DNA from: Falsirhodobacter sp. alg1
GTDB taxonomy: Bacteria; Pseudomonadota; Alphaproteobacteria; Rhodobacterales; Rhodobacteraceae
NCBI RefSeq assembly: GCF_000739715.2
Contig: NZ_BBJC02000003.1
Location: 87,338-151,337, forward strand
DNA length: 64,000 nt
Direction: 5' to 3'
The notes under the pieces are model-generated. The model saw only the letters and a list, made by a program, of their open reading frames with translations. It searched no databases and was not told where the DNA came from. Below, piece after piece: positions 35,525-47,174 of this stretch (the first letter of the stretch is position 1; each line of letters begins with the position of its first letter). A program made the translations under genes and the position numbers.

Positions 35525-36511
35525 TTGCCCATCAACATCGCCTCTGTCTCCATCGACCCCCCGGTCCTGCTTGCCCCTCTGGCAGGGATCACCGATTTGC
35601 CGTTCCGTCAGCTTGTCGGCCGTTTCGGCGCTGGGCTGGTGGTGTCGGAAATGGTCGCAAGCCAGGAGGTGGTGCAGGCAAAGCCCGCGGCCCGTGCGAA
35701 GGCGGAACTCGGCTTTGGCGAAGGGGCGACATCGGTACAGCTTGCAGGGCGTGATGCCTATTGGCTGGCAGAGGCCGCGCGATATGTCGAGGCGCAGGGC
35801 GCACGGATCATCGACATCAACATGGGCTGCCCCGCCAAGCGGGTAACCTCGGCCGGTGGTGCCGGTGCCTGCGGTTCGGCCCTGATGCGCGAGCCGGATC
35901 TGGCGCTGACCCTGATCGAGGCGGTGGTGCAGGCCGTGCAGGTTCCGGTGACGCTGAAGATGCGTCTGGGGTGGGATGATGACAGCCATAACGCGCCGGA
36001 AATCGCCGCGCGGGCCGAGGCGGCCGGTGTGCGGATGATCACCATCCACGGGCGTACCCGGTGCCAGTTCTACAAGGGCCGCGCCAATTGGGCCGCAATC
36101 CGTCCGGTGACCGAGGCCGTAAATGTTCCCGTGATCGCCAATGGTGACATCACGGATGCCGATACCGCCGCCGAGGCTCTGCGCCAATCGGGCGCGGATG
36201 GCGTGATGGTGGGGCGGGGCGCGCAGGGGCGGCCTTGGATTCTGGCCCAGATTGCGGCGGCGCTTTACGGAACGCCGGCGCCGGTGGTGCCGCAGGGGGC
36301 TGCGCTCGCCGACATGGTTATCGGGCATTATCAAGCGATGCTGGGATTTTACGGTATCGAGCTGGGGGTGAAAGTGGCGCGTAAGCATCTCGGTTGGTAT
36401 CTGGAGGCGGCAGGGGCGGTCAAGGGCAATGCCCTGACCGAAACCGACCCCGCAGCCGTAGAAAAGGCGGTTCGGGCGGCATTGTCCGAACCTGCGCGGT
36501 GTGCAGCATGA
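35525..36511 (+). CDS. dusB: tRNA-dihydrouridine synthase (NifR3)
   Basis: Reduces specific uridines in the tRNA D loop with FMN and NADPH. The 328-residue product has the Dus signature with the catalytic Cys102 in INMGCPAKRVTS, FMN-contact PLAGITDLPFRQL, and GRGAQGRPW. It is known as nifR3 in Rhodobacter, where it heads the nifR3-ntrB-ntrC operon, as it does here. The start is a TTG at 35525 preceded by AAGG; no in-frame ATG exists before the conserved N terminus. The stop overlaps ntrB (ATGA). Confidence 0.96.
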   Translation: MPINIASVSIDPPVLLAPLAGITDLPFRQLVGRFGAGLVVSEMVASQEVVQAKPAARAKAELGFGEGATSVQLAGRDAYWLAEAARYVEAQGARIIDINMGCPAKRVTSAGGAGACGSALMREPDLALTLIEAVVQAVQVPVTLKMRLGWDDDSHNAPEIAARAEAAGVRMITIHGRTRCQFYKGRANWAAIRPVTEAVNVPVIANGDITDADTAAEALRQSGADGVMVGRGAQGRPWILAQIAAALYGTPAPVVPQGAALADMVIGHYQAMLGFYGIELGVKVARKHLGWYLEAAGAVKGNALTETDPAAVEKAVRAALSEPARCAA

Positions 36512-37611
36512 GCGGCAGCATCGATCACCTGCCCGCCGGAGCAATCTGGGCCAGCCTGCCTGTGCCCGCCCTGCTGATCGATACGGCAAACCTGATTGCC
36601 GCCATCAATCCGGTTGCCGAGAATTTTTTGAATGCTTCGCAGAAAAGCCTGCTTCAGCAACCGGTTCTGGACCGTCTTTCGATTGATGCGCCGATGGATG
36701 AGGCGCTGGACCGGGTTCGGCGCAACCAGTCGGCCCTGTTCATCAATGATGTGGATGTAACCACCGGCGAACGCCCGCCCGTCCAGTGCAACGTGCAGAT
36801 AGCGCCTTTGGGGGATGTGCGCGGCCTGCTGCTGCTGCTGATCTCGCCGCGTGAACTTGCGGACAGGCTGGGGCGTGTGGATGCGGTCCGGTCGGCGGCC
36901 CGCTCCGCCATCGGAATGGCCGAGATGCTCGCGCATGAGATCAAGAACCCTCTGGCCGGTATTTCGGGGGCGGCGCAGCTGATTTCCGAAAACCTCAATG
37001 CCGAGGATCGGGAACTGGCGGATCTGATCGTCGAGGAAACCCGCCGGATCGTGAAACTGCTGGAGCAGGTGGAGCAATTCGGCAATATCCGCCCGCCGGA
37101 ATGCCGCGCTGTGAACATCCATGATGCGCTGGACCGCGCCCGCCGCTCGGCGGTCGTCGGATTTGCCGCAAAAATGCAGATCATCGAGGATTATGACCCG
37201 TCCTTGCCCGCCACCTTTGCCGACGCCGACCAGTTGATGCAGGTTTTCCTGAACCTGATCAAGAATGCGGCAGAGGCGTCGGGCAAGACCGGCGGAACGA
37301 TCCGGTTGCGCACCTTCTACGATCTTGCCCTGCGGTTGCGTCGCAAGGACGGGCAGGGCAGCGCCCTTCCGCTGCAGGTAGAGATCATCGACGACGGTCC
37401 GGGCATCAAGCCCGAGATCGCGGAATCCATTTTCGATCCGTTCGTTTCGGGTCGTGAGAACGGGACAGGCCTGGGCCTCGCGCTCGTATCCAAGATCATT
37501 TCGGATCATGGCGGTATCATTTCCGTCGATTCCGTGCCCGGACGGACCGTATTCCGGGTTTCCCTTCCAGTTGCCCCGCGAGAGGCAGCGCAGCCTGCGA
37601 TGGAGATTTAA
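36508..37611 (+). CDS. ntrB: Nitrogen regulation sensor kinase NtrB
   Basis: Soluble kinase/phosphatase for NtrC, controlled by PII proteins. The 367-residue product has an N-terminal PAS domain (about residues 10-120), His143 in MLAHEIKNPLAGISGAAQLI, an N box (NLIKNAAEASGKTGG) and G boxes DDGPGI and GTGLGLALVSKII. The start at 36508 overlaps the dusB stop; the open frame upstream belongs to the dusB coding region. ntrC starts immediately after the ntrB TAA. Confidence 0.96.
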   Translation: MSGSIDHLPAGAIWASLPVPALLIDTANLIAAINPVAENFLNASQKSLLQQPVLDRLSIDAPMDEALDRVRRNQSALFINDVDVTTGERPPVQCNVQIAPLGDVRGLLLLLISPRELADRLGRVDAVRSAARSAIGMAEMLAHEIKNPLAGISGAAQLISENLNAEDRELADLIVEETRRIVKLLEQVEQFGNIRPPECRAVNIHDALDRARRSAVVGFAAKMQIIEDYDPSLPATFADADQLMQVFLNLIKNAAEASGKTGGTIRLRTFYDLALRLRRKDGQGSALPLQVEIIDDGPGIKPEIAESIFDPFVSGRENGTGLGLALVSKIISDHGGIISVDSVPGRTVFRVSLPVAPREAAQPAMEI

Positions 37612-38976
37612 ATGGACGGCACCATTCTTGTTGCAGACGACGACCGCACCATTCGTACCGTGTTGACGCAGGCGCTGACACGCGCGGGATGCAAGGTGCA
37701 TGCGACCTCGTCGCTGATGACGCTGATGCGTTGGGTGGAGGAGGGAAAGGGCGATCTGGTCATTTCCGATGTGGTCATGCCCGACGGGAACGGACTGGAG
37801 GCGCTGCCGCGCATCTCCAAGCTGCGTCCGGGGCTGCCGGTCATAGTCATCTCGGCGCAGAACACCATCATGACCGCCATTCAGGCCGCCGAGGCCGAGG
37901 CCTATGACTACCTGCCCAAACCTTTCGACCTGCCGGATCTGATGAAGCGTTCGGCGCGCGCGCTTGACATGAAGCGCCGCGTGCCACCCCGTACGGCCGC
38001 ACCGCGTGAAGGTGCCGATGATCTGCCGCTGGTCGGACGCACGCCTGCAATGCAGGCCCTTTACCGGCTGGTGGCGCGTGTGATGAACACCGATCTGGCT
38101 GTTCTGATCACCGGGGAATCCGGAACGGGGAAATCGCTGATTGCCCGCGCGATCCACGATTTCTCGGACCGTCGGACGCAGCCCTTCGTGGTGGCCCAAT
38201 CCGGCGATCTGCAAGGGGCCGACGGGCCTTCGGCGCTGATGTCGCGGGCAAAGGGGGGCAGCCTCGTGTTCGACGAGGTGGCCGATTACGATGAGGATAC
38301 GCAGGCCCGCATCGTACGCCTGCTGGACCAGATGGGCGAACACGCGCCACGGATCATGGCGACCTCGCAAAGCGATCTGCAGGCCCGGATGGAGCAGGGA
38401 TCCTTCCGTCAGGATCTGTTCTACCGTCTGGGGGGCGTGACGCTGCATGTGCCGGCCCTGCGCGAACGGGTGGATGATATTCCGCTGCTGGCCGAACATT
38501 TCTTGGCCCGCGGAGAGCGGGATATGGGCACCGTCCGTCGGCTGAACAGCGACGCGCGTGAACTGGTCCGCGCCTATAGCTGGCCGGGCAATGTGCGGCA
38601 GCTGGAAAATACCCTGCGCCGCCTGATCGTGACCTCGGGCGAGGCAGAGATCACGAAATCCGAGGTAGAGGCCGTGCTGGGCGCCCAGCCCGCGATGGAG
38701 CCGCTCAAGGGCGGGGGCGAGAGCGAGAAGCTGTCGGCTTCGGTTGCCCGCCACCTGAAGCGGTATTTCGATCTGCATGGCGGGGCACTGCCGCCCCCCG
38801 GCGTCTATCAACGCATCCTGCGCGAGGTGGAAGGCCCGCTGATCGAGATCGCCCTTGATGCCACTGCGGGCAATCAGGCCAAATGTGCTGATCTTCTGGG
38901 GATCAACCGCAATACCCTGCGCAAGAAGATAACGGATCTGGATATTCGCGTGACACGGCGGCGCAAGCTGATGTAG
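37612..38976 (+). CDS. ntrC: Nitrogen response regulator NtrC lacking GAFTGA
   Basis: DNA-binding response regulator for nitrogen control. The 454-residue product has a receiver domain (phospho-acceptor Asp in [13 protein letters not shown]), an AAA+ domain with Walker A GESGTGKS (168-175) and Walker B at Asp221-Glu222 (GSLVFDEV), and a C-terminal Fis helix-turn-helix ([19 protein letters not shown]). The sigma54-contacting GAFTGA loop is missing: only 45 residues separate Walker A from Walker B. This matches R. capsulatus NtrC, known to activate sigma70 promoters. GGAG lies 6 bases before the ATG, inside the end of ntrB. Confidence 0.95.
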
Positions 38977-38990
38977 CACCGCAATGAGGG

Positions 38991-42639: not shown

Positions 42640-44015
42640 TGAAAGTCATCATTTGCGGCATCGGACAGGTCGGGTGGCAGATTGCCCGGCAGCTTTCGGG
42701 TGAACGGAACGATGTGACCGTTATCGATATGTCCGATGATCTGGTGCGACGGGCGACCGAAACACTGGATGTGCAGGGGGTGATCGGCTTTGCAAGCTAT
42801 CCCGACGTGCTGCACCGTGCAGGTGCCAAGGATGCCGATATGGTCATCGCGGCGACCCGTTCGGATGAAGTGAACATGGTCATCTGCCAGGTGGCGCATT
42901 CGATTTTCGAGGTGCCGCGCAAGGTGGCACGTCTGCGAGCGCAAAGCTATCTCGATGCGATCTATGCCGATCTGTACCGGTCGGGGCATATGCCGATCGA
43001 CGTCGTGATCTCCCCCGAGAAAGAGGTGGCCGAGGCGGCGCTGCAAAGGTTGGCAGCACCATCTGCCTTCGATACCGAAAGCTTCATGGACGGGCGTGCC
43101 CAGTTGCTGGGGATTGCACTGGAAGATGACTGCCCCGTTCTGAACACGCCCTTGCGCCAGTTGAACGAACTGTTCTCCACTCTGCGGGCGATCGTCGTCG
43201 GTATCCGTCGCGACGGAAAGCTGTTTGTCCCCGAGGCGAAGGACCAGTTGTTCGCCGGGGATTCGATCTATGTGTTCACCCATCATGAAGACGTTCCGCG
43301 CGCGCTGGAGATTTTCGGCAAGGCGAGCCGCCGTCAGGAACGTATCATCATTCTGGGGGGCGGTGCCGTCGGCTTGACCGTGGCACAGCGCCTTGAAACC
43401 CACAGCCGCCGTATCCGCACGAAAATCATCGAACGGAACCGTTCCCGCGCCGAATTTGCGGCCGAGGCGCTGAGCCATACCATCGTGCTGAACGGCGATG
43501 CGATGGATAACGAGCTGCTGGCCGAGGCGGATATCACCGGCGCGGATGCGGTTCTGGCCCTGACGGATGATGACAAGACGAACCTGCTGGCAGCGGTGCG
43601 GGCCAAGCAGGCCGGCTGCCCGTTGACCATCGCGCTGGTCAATGATCCGACACTGGTTCCGCTGATGGGGCCGCTGGATATCGATGCCTACATCAACCCG
43701 CGGGCCACGACCGTATCGTCGATCCTGCGGTACATCCGGCACGGTCGCGTGCGTCAGATCTATTCCATCGGTGATTCCGAGGCGGAAATGATCGAGGCGC
43801 AGGTGCTTTCCACCTCGTCCATGGCTGGAAAGGCCGTTCGGGATATCGCCTTTCCCGAAGGCGTGCTGGTGGGCGGTATCCTCAAGGGGGACCGGGTGAT
43901 GAAGCCGACCGCCGACCTGCGGATCGAGGAGGGGGATATCGTCGCGATCTTTGCCATGACCAAGGATGTTCCCGAAGTGGAACGTCTGCTGCAAGTTTCG
44001 ATCGATTTCTTTTGA
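42639..44015 (+). CDS. trkA: Trk potassium transporter peripheral subunit TrkA
   Basis: Cytoplasmic NAD(H)-binding gate of the Trk potassium uptake system. The 458-residue product has two RCK_N Rossmann domains (VIICGIGQVGWQIARQL at the start; IILGGGAVGLTVAQRL near residue 235) and two TrkA_C domains. It overlaps ntrX by one base (TAATG) and trkH by one base (TGATG), so the ntrYX and trkAH genes form one translation chain, an arrangement also known in other Rhodobacterales. Confidence 0.96.
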   Translation: MKVIICGIGQVGWQIARQLSGERNDVTVIDMSDDLVRRATETLDVQGVIGFASYPDVLHRAGAKDADMVIAATRSDEVNMVICQVAHSIFEVPRKVARLRAQSYLDAIYADLYRSGHMPIDVVISPEKEVAEAALQRLAAPSAFDTESFMDGRAQLLGIALEDDCPVLNTPLRQLNELFSTLRAIVVGIRRDGKLFVPEAKDQLFAGDSIYVFTHHEDVPRALEIFGKASRRQERIIILGGGAVGLTVAQRLETHSRRIRTKIIERNRSRAEFAAEALSHTIVLNGDAMDNELLAEADITGADAVLALTDDDKTNLLAAVRAKQAGCPLTIALVNDPTLVPLMGPLDIDAYINPRATTVSSILRYIRHGRVRQIYSIGDSEAEMIEAQVLSTSSMAGKAVRDIAFPEGVLVGGILKGDRVMKPTADLRIEEGDIVAIFAMTKDVPEVERLLQVSIDFF

Positions 44016-45520
44016 TGGCCTCCGTCCGTACGGTCCCTATGCTGATCTGGGTATTGGGGGTAGGTGCGCTTGCCATGTTCCTGCCTGCCGCGCATGGATT
44101 GGTGCGCGGCCATATGGAGGTGTCACGCGCGTTTTTCTATTCGGGCACCCTGTTTCTGATATTTGCGGGCATGATGGCGCTGGCAACAGCCAACTACCGC
44201 CCCACGAACCTTGCGCGCAACCATCTGGCCTCTCTGGTCGGGGCCTATCTGATCGTGCCGGTGATGCTGGCGGTGCCGTTCCAATGGGCGGTCGGAGATA
44301 CGTCGTTTTTCAACGCATGGTTCGAAATGCTGTCCTCGTTCACCACGACGGGGGCAACGCTTTATGATCGACCTGATCGGTTGAGCGATACGCTGCATCT
44401 ATGGCGCGCGCTGGTCGGGTGGCTGGGCGGGTTTTTCGTTATCCTGAATGCCGTTGCAGTGCTTGCGCCCCTGAACCTCGGCGGGATCGAGGTCTTGTCG
44501 GGGCGGGCACCGGGCCGGCAGAACCTGAAGGCCCTGATCGAGGTGGCCGAACCGGCAGAGCGCATGTTCCATCATGCGATCCGCCTGTTGCCAGCCTATG
44601 GCGGACTGACGCTTGTGCTTTGGGTAATCCTGCTGGCCATGGGTGAAAACGGGCTTTTCGCGCTGTCCTATGCAATGGGTACACTGTCGACATCGGGAAT
44701 CTATCCGGGCGTCGATTATTCCCATATGCCCGGACTGCATGTCAGTGAAATTGCGGTTTTTGCGTTTCTGACGGTTGCAATCACCCGGCGCATGTTGCCC
44801 GGGCGCGTCCTGATCGACCGCTCTGCCCGATTGCGCGACAACCCCGAGGTCAGGTTCGCAGCCATGTTGATGCTGACGGCCCCCACGGTGCTGGTATTGC
44901 GCCACTGGTTGGGGCAGGTCGATTATATCGGCGGGATCGGGGAGTTCTCGCAGGCAATGTGGGGCAGCCTGTTCACCACGCTCAGCTTCATGACCACCAC
45001 AGGCTATGTCTCGGGGGGCTGGGATGTGGCGCGGGGCTGGTCGGGGTTGGACAGTTCGGGCCTGATCCTGCTAGGGCTGGCGGTCGTCGGCGGTGGCGTG
45101 GGCACCGCGGCGGGCGGGGTGACGCTGCTGCGGGTCTATGCCCTGTCGCGGCATTCCCACCGTGAGATGCAGCGGATCATCCACCCTTCGTCCATTGGCG
45201 GGGGCAGTCCGGTTGCCCGCCGTCTTCGTCGTGACGGGGCCTATGTGGCATGGATATTCATCATGCTGTTCGGCGTGACGGCTGTGGTGGCAATGCTGCT
45301 GCTGGGGCTGGTGGGAATGCGGTTCGAACCTGCGGTCATTCTGACCATGTCGGCGCTGACCACCGCCGGTCCCCTGGCCAGTGTGGCGGGCGAAGTGCCG
45401 ATCTTCTGGTCCGCCCAGACAGATGTGGCCAAGTTCATTCTGGGCATTACAATGATATTCGGCCGGGTCGAAACGCTTGTGGTGCTGGCGCTGCTCGCCC
45501 CCTCAAGCTGGCGGCGATAG
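44015..45520 (+). CDS. trkH: Trk potassium uptake channel TrkH
   Basis: Potassium-translocating membrane subunit. The 501-residue product has about ten membrane helices with four P-loop segments; FTTTGATLYD and FMTTTGYVSGG are the clearest selectivity-filter regions, and LTTAGPLASV ends the fourth. The ATG at 44015 overlaps the trkA TGA; a TTG three bases earlier is in frame but not needed. A 110-base gap with the hfq promoter follows. Confidence 0.95.
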   Translation: MASVRTVPMLIWVLGVGALAMFLPAAHGLVRGHMEVSRAFFYSGTLFLIFAGMMALATANYRPTNLARNHLASLVGAYLIVPVMLAVPFQWAVGDTSFFNAWFEMLSSFTTTGATLYDRPDRLSDTLHLWRALVGWLGGFFVILNAVAVLAPLNLGGIEVLSGRAPGRQNLKALIEVAEPAERMFHHAIRLLPAYGGLTLVLWVILLAMGENGLFALSYAMGTLSTSGIYPGVDYSHMPGLHVSEIAVFAFLTVAITRRMLPGRVLIDRSARLRDNPEVRFAAMLMLTAPTVLVLRHWLGQVDYIGGIGEFSQAMWGSLFTTLSFMTTTGYVSGGWDVARGWSGLDSSGLILLGLAVVGGGVGTAAGGVTLLRVYALSRHSHREMQRIIHPSSIGGGSPVARRLRRDGAYVAWIFIMLFGVTAVVAMLLLGLVGMRFEPAVILTMSALTTAGPLASVAGEVPIFWSAQTDVAKFILGITMIFGRVETLVVLALLAPSSWRR

Positions 45521-45630: not shown

Positions 45631-45864
45631 ATGGCCACTGACAAACAAAACCTTCAGGACGCTTTCCTCAACCACGTTCGCAAGGCGAAAGTGCCTGTCA
45701 CAATTTTTCTGATCAATGGCGTAAAGCTTCAGGGCGTGATCAGCTGGTTCGACAATTTCTGTGTGCTGTTGCGTCGCGACGGACAGTCGCAGCTAGTGTA
45801 CAAACATGCGATCTCGACCATCATGCCGGGTGCGCCGATCAACCTTTATGAAGGTGAAGACTGA
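45631..45864 (+). CDS. hfq: RNA chaperone Hfq
   Basis: Sm-like hexameric chaperone for small RNAs, controlling nif and photosynthesis genes in related bacteria. The 77-residue product has Sm1 ([19 protein letters not shown]) and Sm2 with YKHAISTI, and a very short C-terminal tail ([12 protein letters not shown]), as in other Rhodobacterales. AAGG precedes the ATG. Its TGA overlaps the likely ATT start of hflX by one base, and GAAGGTGA at the end of hfq is the hflX ribosome site. Confidence 0.97.
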
Positions 45865-47174
45865 TTTCCGATACTGATGATACGCGCGGCCCTGTCGCCT
45901 CATATTCAACCGAAGCTGCGCTGACACGGGCTTTTGTTCTTCACCCCGATCTGCGTGCGAAATCATCGCGGCGCCTGCCGGAGCATGGTCTGGCAGAGGC
46001 TGTGGCGCTGGCTGCTGCCTTGCCCGGCCTGGAAGTGGTGGGGGCCGATGTCGTGCCCGTGCCAAAGGCGACGCCGGGCATGCTGTTCGGTTCGGGCAAG
46101 GTTGAGGAACTGGCGGCACGCTTCAAGGCCGAGGATGTGGCATTGGTGCTGGTGGATGGACCCGTCACGCCCGTGCAGCAACGCAATCTGGAAAAGGCAT
46201 GGGGGGTCAAACTGCTGGACCGGACCGGCCTGATCCTCGAGATCTTTGCCGATCGTGCCGGAACGCGCGAAGGTGTGCTACAGGTCGAACTTGCAGCACT
46301 GTCCTATCAACGGACGCGGCTGGTACGGGCGTGGACCCACCTTGAACGGCAAAGGGGCGGCCTCGGGTTTGTCGGTGGCCCGGGCGAAACGCAGATCGAG
46401 GCGGACCGCCGTGCGATCGATGAACAGATGATCCGCATCCGGCGTCAGCTGGAAAAGGTCGTTCGCACCCGTGAATTGCACCGTGCCGCACGGCGCAAAG
46501 TGCCGTTTCCGATTGTGGCGCTGGTGGGATATACCAATGCGGGCAAATCCAGCCTGTTCAACCGCATGACCGGTGCCGATGTGATGGCGAAAGATATGCT
46601 TTTTGCCACGCTGGATCCGACCATGCGCTCGGTCGAGCTTCCGACCGGGTTTACGGTGATCCTGTCCGATACGGTGGGGTTCATTTCCGAATTGCCGACC
46701 CAACTGGTCGCGGCCTTTCGCGCCACATTGGAAGAGGTGCTGGAAGCCGATCTCATCGTTCATGTGCGGGACATCTCGCACCCCGAAACGGCCGAACAGG
46801 CTGCGGATGTCGGGGATATCCTTGCCAGCCTTGGGGTCGATCCTTCGGTTCCCATGTTCGAGGCATGGAACAAGCTGGATCTGGTGGATGCCACCGCGCG
46901 TGAGGCGATCCAGAAGCGTGGTGCCACCTCGGGTGAGGTATTCCCCGTATCCGCCGTCACGGGTGAGGGGATCGATGCGCTGATCCAGGCGATTACCAGC
47001 ACATTGGATGAACCACGTGAGCTGGAAGAGCTGACGCTGGATCTGGCTGACGGCCGGCGCCGGGCATGGCTGCACGAGGAAGGTGTCGTGGAGGCGGAGC
47101 GGGCGGATGAAACCGCCCACCACATGACCGTCCGTTGGACAGGGCGGCAGAAGGCGCGCTTCACGCGCCTTTGA
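45864..47174 (+). CDS. hflX: GTPase HflX, probable ATT start
   Basis: Ribosome-associated GTPase that splits stalled or heat-damaged ribosomes. The product is 436 residues if it starts at the ATT at 45864, close to E. coli HflX (426). N-terminal HflX domain: TRAFVLHPDLRAK, PGMLFGSGKVEEL, GGPGETQIEADRR; G domain: GYTNAGKSSLFN, SDTVGFISELP, and NKLD in AWNKLDLVD. The first usable ATG/GTG/TTG in frame is the GTG at 46002, which would remove about 46 conserved residues. GGTGA lies 6 bases before the ATT. See findings. Confidence 0.88.
   Translation: MSDTDDTRGPVASYSTEAALTRAFVLHPDLRAKSSRRLPEHGLAEAVALAAALPGLEVVGADVVPVPKATPGMLFGSGKVEELAARFKAEDVALVLVDGPVTPVQQRNLEKAWGVKLLDRTGLILEIFADRAGTREGVLQVELAALSYQRTRLVRAWTHLERQRGGLGFVGGPGETQIEADRRAIDEQMIRIRRQLEKVVRTRELHRAARRKVPFPIVALVGYTNAGKSSLFNRMTGADVMAKDMLFATLDPTMRSVELPTGFTVILSDTVGFISELPTQLVAAFRATLEEVLEADLIVHVRDISHPETAEQAADVGDILASLGVDPSVPMFEAWNKLDLVDATAREAIQKRGATSGEVFPVSAVTGEGIDALIQAITSTLDEPRELEELTLDLADGRRRAWLHEEGVVEAERADETAHHMTVRWTGRQKARFTRL

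Follow-up and report, generated by a model that had tools for sequence, protein, structure and literature searches.

Well-described genes with conserved near-cognate start codons are rare. In E. coli, infC starts at ATT, a codon through which the gene is autoregulated (PMC5472188), and the infC start of S. aureus is AUA (PMC13009471). Streptomyces sigR starts at GTC in 32 of 34 species and at GTT in the other two, and is repressed by IF3 (PMC5472188). The AUA start of staphylococcal ccpN and the AUU start of cvfC1 were found by start mapping combined with comparison, and near-cognate reporters in S. aureus gave about 10% of the AUG output in poor medium (PMC13009471). On the E. coli 70S ribosome, CUG can pair with the initiator tRNA in the P site (PMC11497404). 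Overlapping stop and start codons of the ATGA and TGATG types let a terminating ribosome restart (PMC6728339). A literature search, judged by titles and abstract openings, found no paper on the start codon of hflX.

The window analysed here is a 64,000-nucleotide stretch of the Falsirhodobacter sp. alg1 genome. On its forward strand, hfq (45631–45864; TIGR02383, 113.2 bits; PRK00395 model, 127.7 bits; PF17209) ends in GAA GGT GAA GAC TGA, with the stop at 45862–45864. The hflX frame lies one base back and is bounded upstream by a TGA at 45855–45857, after which it reads AGA CTG ATT TCC GAT ACT. As the first-pass annotation had observed, with correct coordinates and letters, the frame then holds no ATG, GTG or TTG before the GTG at 46002–46004, which lies 46 codons past ATT. 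Two near-cognate codons touch the hfq stop, so that a stop/start overlap is present at 45861–45866 in either case: CTG (45861–45863) overlaps the stop by four bases (CTGA) and ATT (45864–45866) by one (TGATT). The predicted gene spans 45861–47174 and encodes 437 residues from CTG or 436 from ATT. Its product is HflX by TIGR03156 (428.7 bits against a cut-off of 216.75, residues 23–380 counted from ATT), and PF13167, PF16360, PF01926 and PF19275 each score above their cut-offs. With moderate confidence, we place the start of hflX at CTG, with ATT as the second codon, which would embed a near-cognate start in the hfq stop. The geometry had earlier been likened to that of trkA and trkH, whose overlap, TTGATG, does lie at 44012–44017. 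It combines a TTG across the stop with an ATG directly after it, and the same double pattern is found at the hfq-hflX junction of 26 relatives.

CTG ATT is present at the hfq-hflX junction of all seven Falsirhodobacter genomes in our set, one of which is identical at the junction to the Falsirhodobacter deserti record (L034, L006; CTG ATT ACC in L034). Five of them have no canonical start ahead of the conserved TRA-VLHP block of HflX, and the other two (L008, L010) have a TTG 11 bases past the first base of the hfq stop. To place the genus in its family, we collected 202 distinct junctions from 220 loci with hfq adjoining hflX, a sample that leans towards the relatives of the window. The sources were 30 loci from 61 genomes, 80 loci representing best matches only, another 30 loci, and 80 further rows drawn among the matches listed in a search that matched 384 of 394 genomes.

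The frame relation of the window, together with a TGA stop, was found in 151 of the 202 loci. The codon across the stop is TTG in 70 of these (including L204, in which the overlap is followed by an in-frame stop), CTG in 66 and GTG in 15; ATG occupies the four-base overlap in none of the 151. ATG directly at the place of ATT (TGATG) occurs in 35 of the 202 loci, all with the window-like layout. The first-pass annotation had reckoned with a relative carrying ATG at this place combined with a sequencing error here; the first part was found in these 35 loci, the second was not, ATG being absent from all seven genus genomes. No canonical start precedes the conserved block in 43 of the 202 loci: 39 have CTG where the window has it, within the CTGA that holds the hfq stop, two have ATA, one GTA-ATC and one CTA-ATT. 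Genus codes are attached to 30 of the 39 CTG loci, which cover 26 different codes. In 11 further loci a canonical start is found only more than 24 bases downstream, L204 being left out for its in-frame stop. Of the 51 loci whose layout is broken, by another frame or a TAA or TAG stop, 45 have a canonical start no more than 24 bases from the stop; the same holds for only 17 of the 66 loci with CTG (Fisher p = 5e-12, without correction for relatedness). The six exceptions among the 51 are L093, L149, L171, L188, L192 and L197. Four of them with TAA or TAG hfq stops (L093, L149, L188, L192) have GTA-ATC, CTA-ATT, ATA and ATA at the overlap, respectively, and no canonical start before the block. 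Because 27 of the 66 CTG loci, including L008 and L010 from the genus, do have some canonical start before the block, CTG is not necessarily the start of these 27. The earlier claim of a near-cognate start overlapping the hfq stop is supported by a position that is conserved among relatives.

A further 20 loci were read apart from the 202; two belong to the own family and the other 18 to different families of the class. hfq adjoins hflX in 19 of them (the exception is L276). L273, from another family, reads CTG ATC ATA without a canonical start before the conserved block; in L275 and L281 the CTG is followed further on by a canonical start, and in L268, L270, L277 and L278 the codon spanning the stop is TTG or GTG.

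In this layout the last hfq codon sets the putative hflX start codon, so that codon choice in one gene would fix the start of the next. Where Hfq ends in Ser and no ATG follows at +2, a C-ending last codon, which would create CTG, is found in none of 24 loci, while 10.5 are expected from each locus's own usage. C-ending codons are likewise found in two of 10 loci with a final Asn (6.2 expected) and in one of seven with a final Ala (3.1 expected). TCT and AGT, otherwise uncommon Ser codons, account for 40 of 48 codons in the last Ser column and for at most 11 of 47 in any of nine other conserved Ser columns. This bias suggests that many relatives keep TTG there through their choice among synonymous codons, which is how a start codon would be expected to behave. 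Hfq ending in Glu in the same layout uses GAG in five of five loci (2.3 GAA expected), too few to interpret.

The presence of CTG is not independent evidence, because it follows automatically from an Hfq ending in GAC TGA. GAC closes Hfq in 57 of 65 loci and ranks fourth of 19 Asp columns, so it is neither avoided nor clearly favoured. We considered selection for the weak codon itself and set it aside: GAC is used in 57 of 66 cases, above the 44.0 expected by usage, but a column-by-column comparison again places it fourth of 19. The tree requires 25 changes between CTG and other codons. Pair tests corrected for relatedness, with 5, 6 and 2 supported pairs, leaned as expected, none of them significantly.

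Could translation begin elsewhere, or could the open stretch be an artefact? GTG 46002 is the first canonical start in the frame, and residue 47, the position of this codon, is by coincidence also where the phmmer alignment with E. coli HflX starts. Initiation there would leave 46 upstream codons untranslated, which we regard as very improbable. The TIGR03156 match begins at residue 23, 24 residues before the GTG, the match to human GTPBP6 at residue 19, and Pfam GTP-bdg_N at residue 42. Within the genus, residues 25–48 diverge by 0.153, 0.139 and 0.516 at codon positions 1, 2 and 3, a coding pattern. The domain match and the coding divergence ahead of the GTG argue that the stretch upstream of it is translated. 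The first-pass annotation had recognised N-terminal HflX sequence in these 46 residues, and its implied view that the GTG lies too late is supported. Moreover, the canonical starts of the 45 broken-layout loci lie at the hfq stop and not at the position of the GTG. By itself the open stretch carries little weight: when the codons of the frame were shuffled, the first 48 were free of ATG, GTG and TTG in 1.5% of trials, but 6 of the 46 window ORFs of at least 150 residues, hflX included, have at least 48 open codons before their first canonical start. Besides hflX, 11 window ORFs have leads of at least 30 codons; as a control, six of these were scanned for Pfam domains over their extended frames. 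The domain follows the first canonical start in five of the six, and the remaining one has no Pfam match; among the ORFs examined, hflX alone has a known domain starting ahead of its first canonical start. Elsewhere in the window, an 876-residue ORF on the reverse strand (36349–38979) has 86 open codons before its first canonical start, a GTG, and its extended frame has no Pfam match. A sequencing error is excluded by the identity of CTG ATT in all seven genus genomes, and nothing was found in its favour; as the HflX frames also run without stops, the probability of an error or a pseudogene is negligible. An Hfq-HflX fusion, produced by a −1 frameshift at the end of hfq, would agree with the −1 position of the hflX frame relative to hfq in 173 of the 202 loci. 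However, no slippery heptamer was seen by eye in GAAGGTGAAGACTGATT, and each of the 29 loci in other frames has its own canonical start before the conserved block, which makes a fusion highly improbable.

The choice between the two near-cognate codons is closer. The first-pass annotation had named ATT 45864 as the best candidate and CTG 45861 as the other option. If ATT were the start, CTG would be no more than the last codon and stop of hfq read in the hflX frame, the coupling to hfq would be the same and the protein would begin Met-Ser-Asp. ATT is invariant in the seven genus genomes, although in each of 15 other invariant Ile columns none to two of the seven use ATT (9 of 105 codons in all) and ATC is the usual codon, and the leader after this ATT differs by 0.32, 0.34 and 0.58 at codon positions 1, 2 and 3. 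The same place holds ATG in the 35 TGATG loci, and a start followed by Ser or Thr and then Asp or Glu recurs among the N-termini listed. Three loci with TAA stops and no near canonical start (L093, L149, L171) have ATT or ATC there without an NTG before it, which shows that a locus may have no better start than an ATT or ATC in this position. On the other side, ATT, ATC and ATA are all absent from this place in 20 of the 39 canonical-free CTG loci, and in nine of the 39 CTG is the only one of CTG, ATT, ATC and ATA in the whole leader. In the clade of 38 rows (support 90) that holds the genus, L118 and L121 keep CTG with AAC in place of ATT, and in L133 and L048 the ATT or ATC is preceded by TTG. 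In Rhodobacter maris (L063), CTG is followed by AGC. ATT could also be retained as an AT-rich second codon. An ATT start is less probable, though with real support, and the preference for ATT gives way to CTG, which is likelier because it occupies the place of the relatives' TTG or GTG and because 20 of the 39 loci have no ATT, ATC or ATA next to it. ATT, ATC or ATA follows CTG in 32 of 61 loci and TTG or GTG in 8 of 55, as if the codon mattered; common ancestry and an AT-rich second codon are milder readings of this excess. The two codons are adjacent, in frame and both invariant in the genus, and use of both would yield two N-termini one residue apart. We consider this improbable, as loci with only one of the two exist.

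In the preferred reading, with CTG as the start, a ribosome ending hfq at TGA would sit over the hflX start and could re-initiate with fMet, and the weak codon would keep HflX low relative to Hfq. A Shine-Dalgarno-like GGTGA lies within hfq at 45853–45857 and ends 6 bases ahead of ATT, as described earlier. As support for ATT it is weak, since GGTGA (−8.5 kcal/mol) occurs in three of the seven genus genomes and GGCGA (−4.6 kcal/mol) in the other four; no strong conserved Shine-Dalgarno motif was found before the weak codon in these genomes. With the motif unconserved, its spacing is unusable as a judge between CTG and ATT. Taken together, the overlap of stop and start and a near-cognate output of about a tenth of that of AUG in S. 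aureus reporters (PMC13009471) suggest a rate of HflX synthesis that is probably low and tied to hfq. As judged by comparison among relatives, the shared non-standard start is probably real and may hold the amount of HflX low.

The parallel with infC that had been drawn from E. coli extends to the genus itself. The infC gene of Falsirhodobacter sp. alg1 (L234, G000:C4:354787-355287) has no ATG, GTG or TTG in frame before its conserved N-terminus, where ATA GCC CGC AGA CCC follows AAGGA. An ATA at the conserved infC N-terminus with AAGGA upstream is present in all seven genus genomes, and in only one of these, L236, are there ATGs, far upstream. A search of 21 genomes found the motif in 13: the seven of the genus, five other family members (one of which, L228, has an ATG just upstream) and one member of another family; the other eight yielded nothing usable. 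Since infC apparently starts at ATA, a start of a type that is policed by IF3 in other organisms probably exists in Falsirhodobacter sp. alg1. We also considered a special initiator tRNA as the cause of the unusual starts. The initiator-like tRNA-Met of the own genome (L265:885-961) has the stem TCAGG/CCTGA, with an A-U pair replacing the first of the three G-C pairs of the E. coli anticodon stem. This arm pattern is shared by 17 of the 21 genomes searched, among them members of other families of the class, and therefore gives no explanation for this clade.

Whether the hflX start answers to IF3 as well is a more tentative matter. HflX is a ribosome-splitting factor of the stress response, dispensable in E. 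coli at normal growth, and IF3 holds the split subunits apart (PMC9067457). It is conceivable, though unlikely, that in part of the Rhodobacteraceae hflX is under the same start-codon policing as infC, its CTG or ATT start being repressed by IF3. If so, a shortage of free IF3 relative to ribosomes would raise HflX, up to a ceiling set by the coupling to hfq. By splitting ribosomes, HflX would in turn supply free 30S subunits for IF3, a feedback between ribosome splitting and initiation fidelity. A gene finder restricted to ATG, GTG and TTG would clip HflX by 46–47 residues. The TTG, CTG, GTG and ATG variants of this one gene pair form a natural series that could be used to study re-initiation and the effects of IF3.

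With its putative CTG, hflX joins the genes with conserved near-cognate starts, and what is unusual about it is a predicted start hidden in the stop of the preceding gene. Such starts carry regulation in infC, sigR and ccpN (PMC5472188, PMC13009471). Like infC, hflX is a translation-factor gene, but infC here has AAGGA a few bases upstream, whereas hflX overlaps the hfq stop, and its Shine-Dalgarno match is weak and not conserved. The likeness to sigR lies in a conserved non-canonical start on a stress-response gene, and sigR shows that control by IF3 reaches beyond infC; it differs in its GTC codon and its extensive conserved ribosome-binding site, and the available text of that report mentions no overlap with an upstream stop (PMC5472188). 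The near-cognate starts of ccpN and cvfC1 are conserved as well, but are preceded by extended Shine-Dalgarno motifs, and no stop/start overlap is described in the available part of their account (PMC13009471). CUG initiation complexes of E. coli were studied in vitro with a variant tRNA and are less stable than those on AUG, GUG or UUG (PMC11497404). With the ATGA and TGATG pairs, hfq-hflX shares the four-base or one-base overlap; these are ATG-type overlaps, CTGA and GTGA not being found in the main text (PMC6728339).
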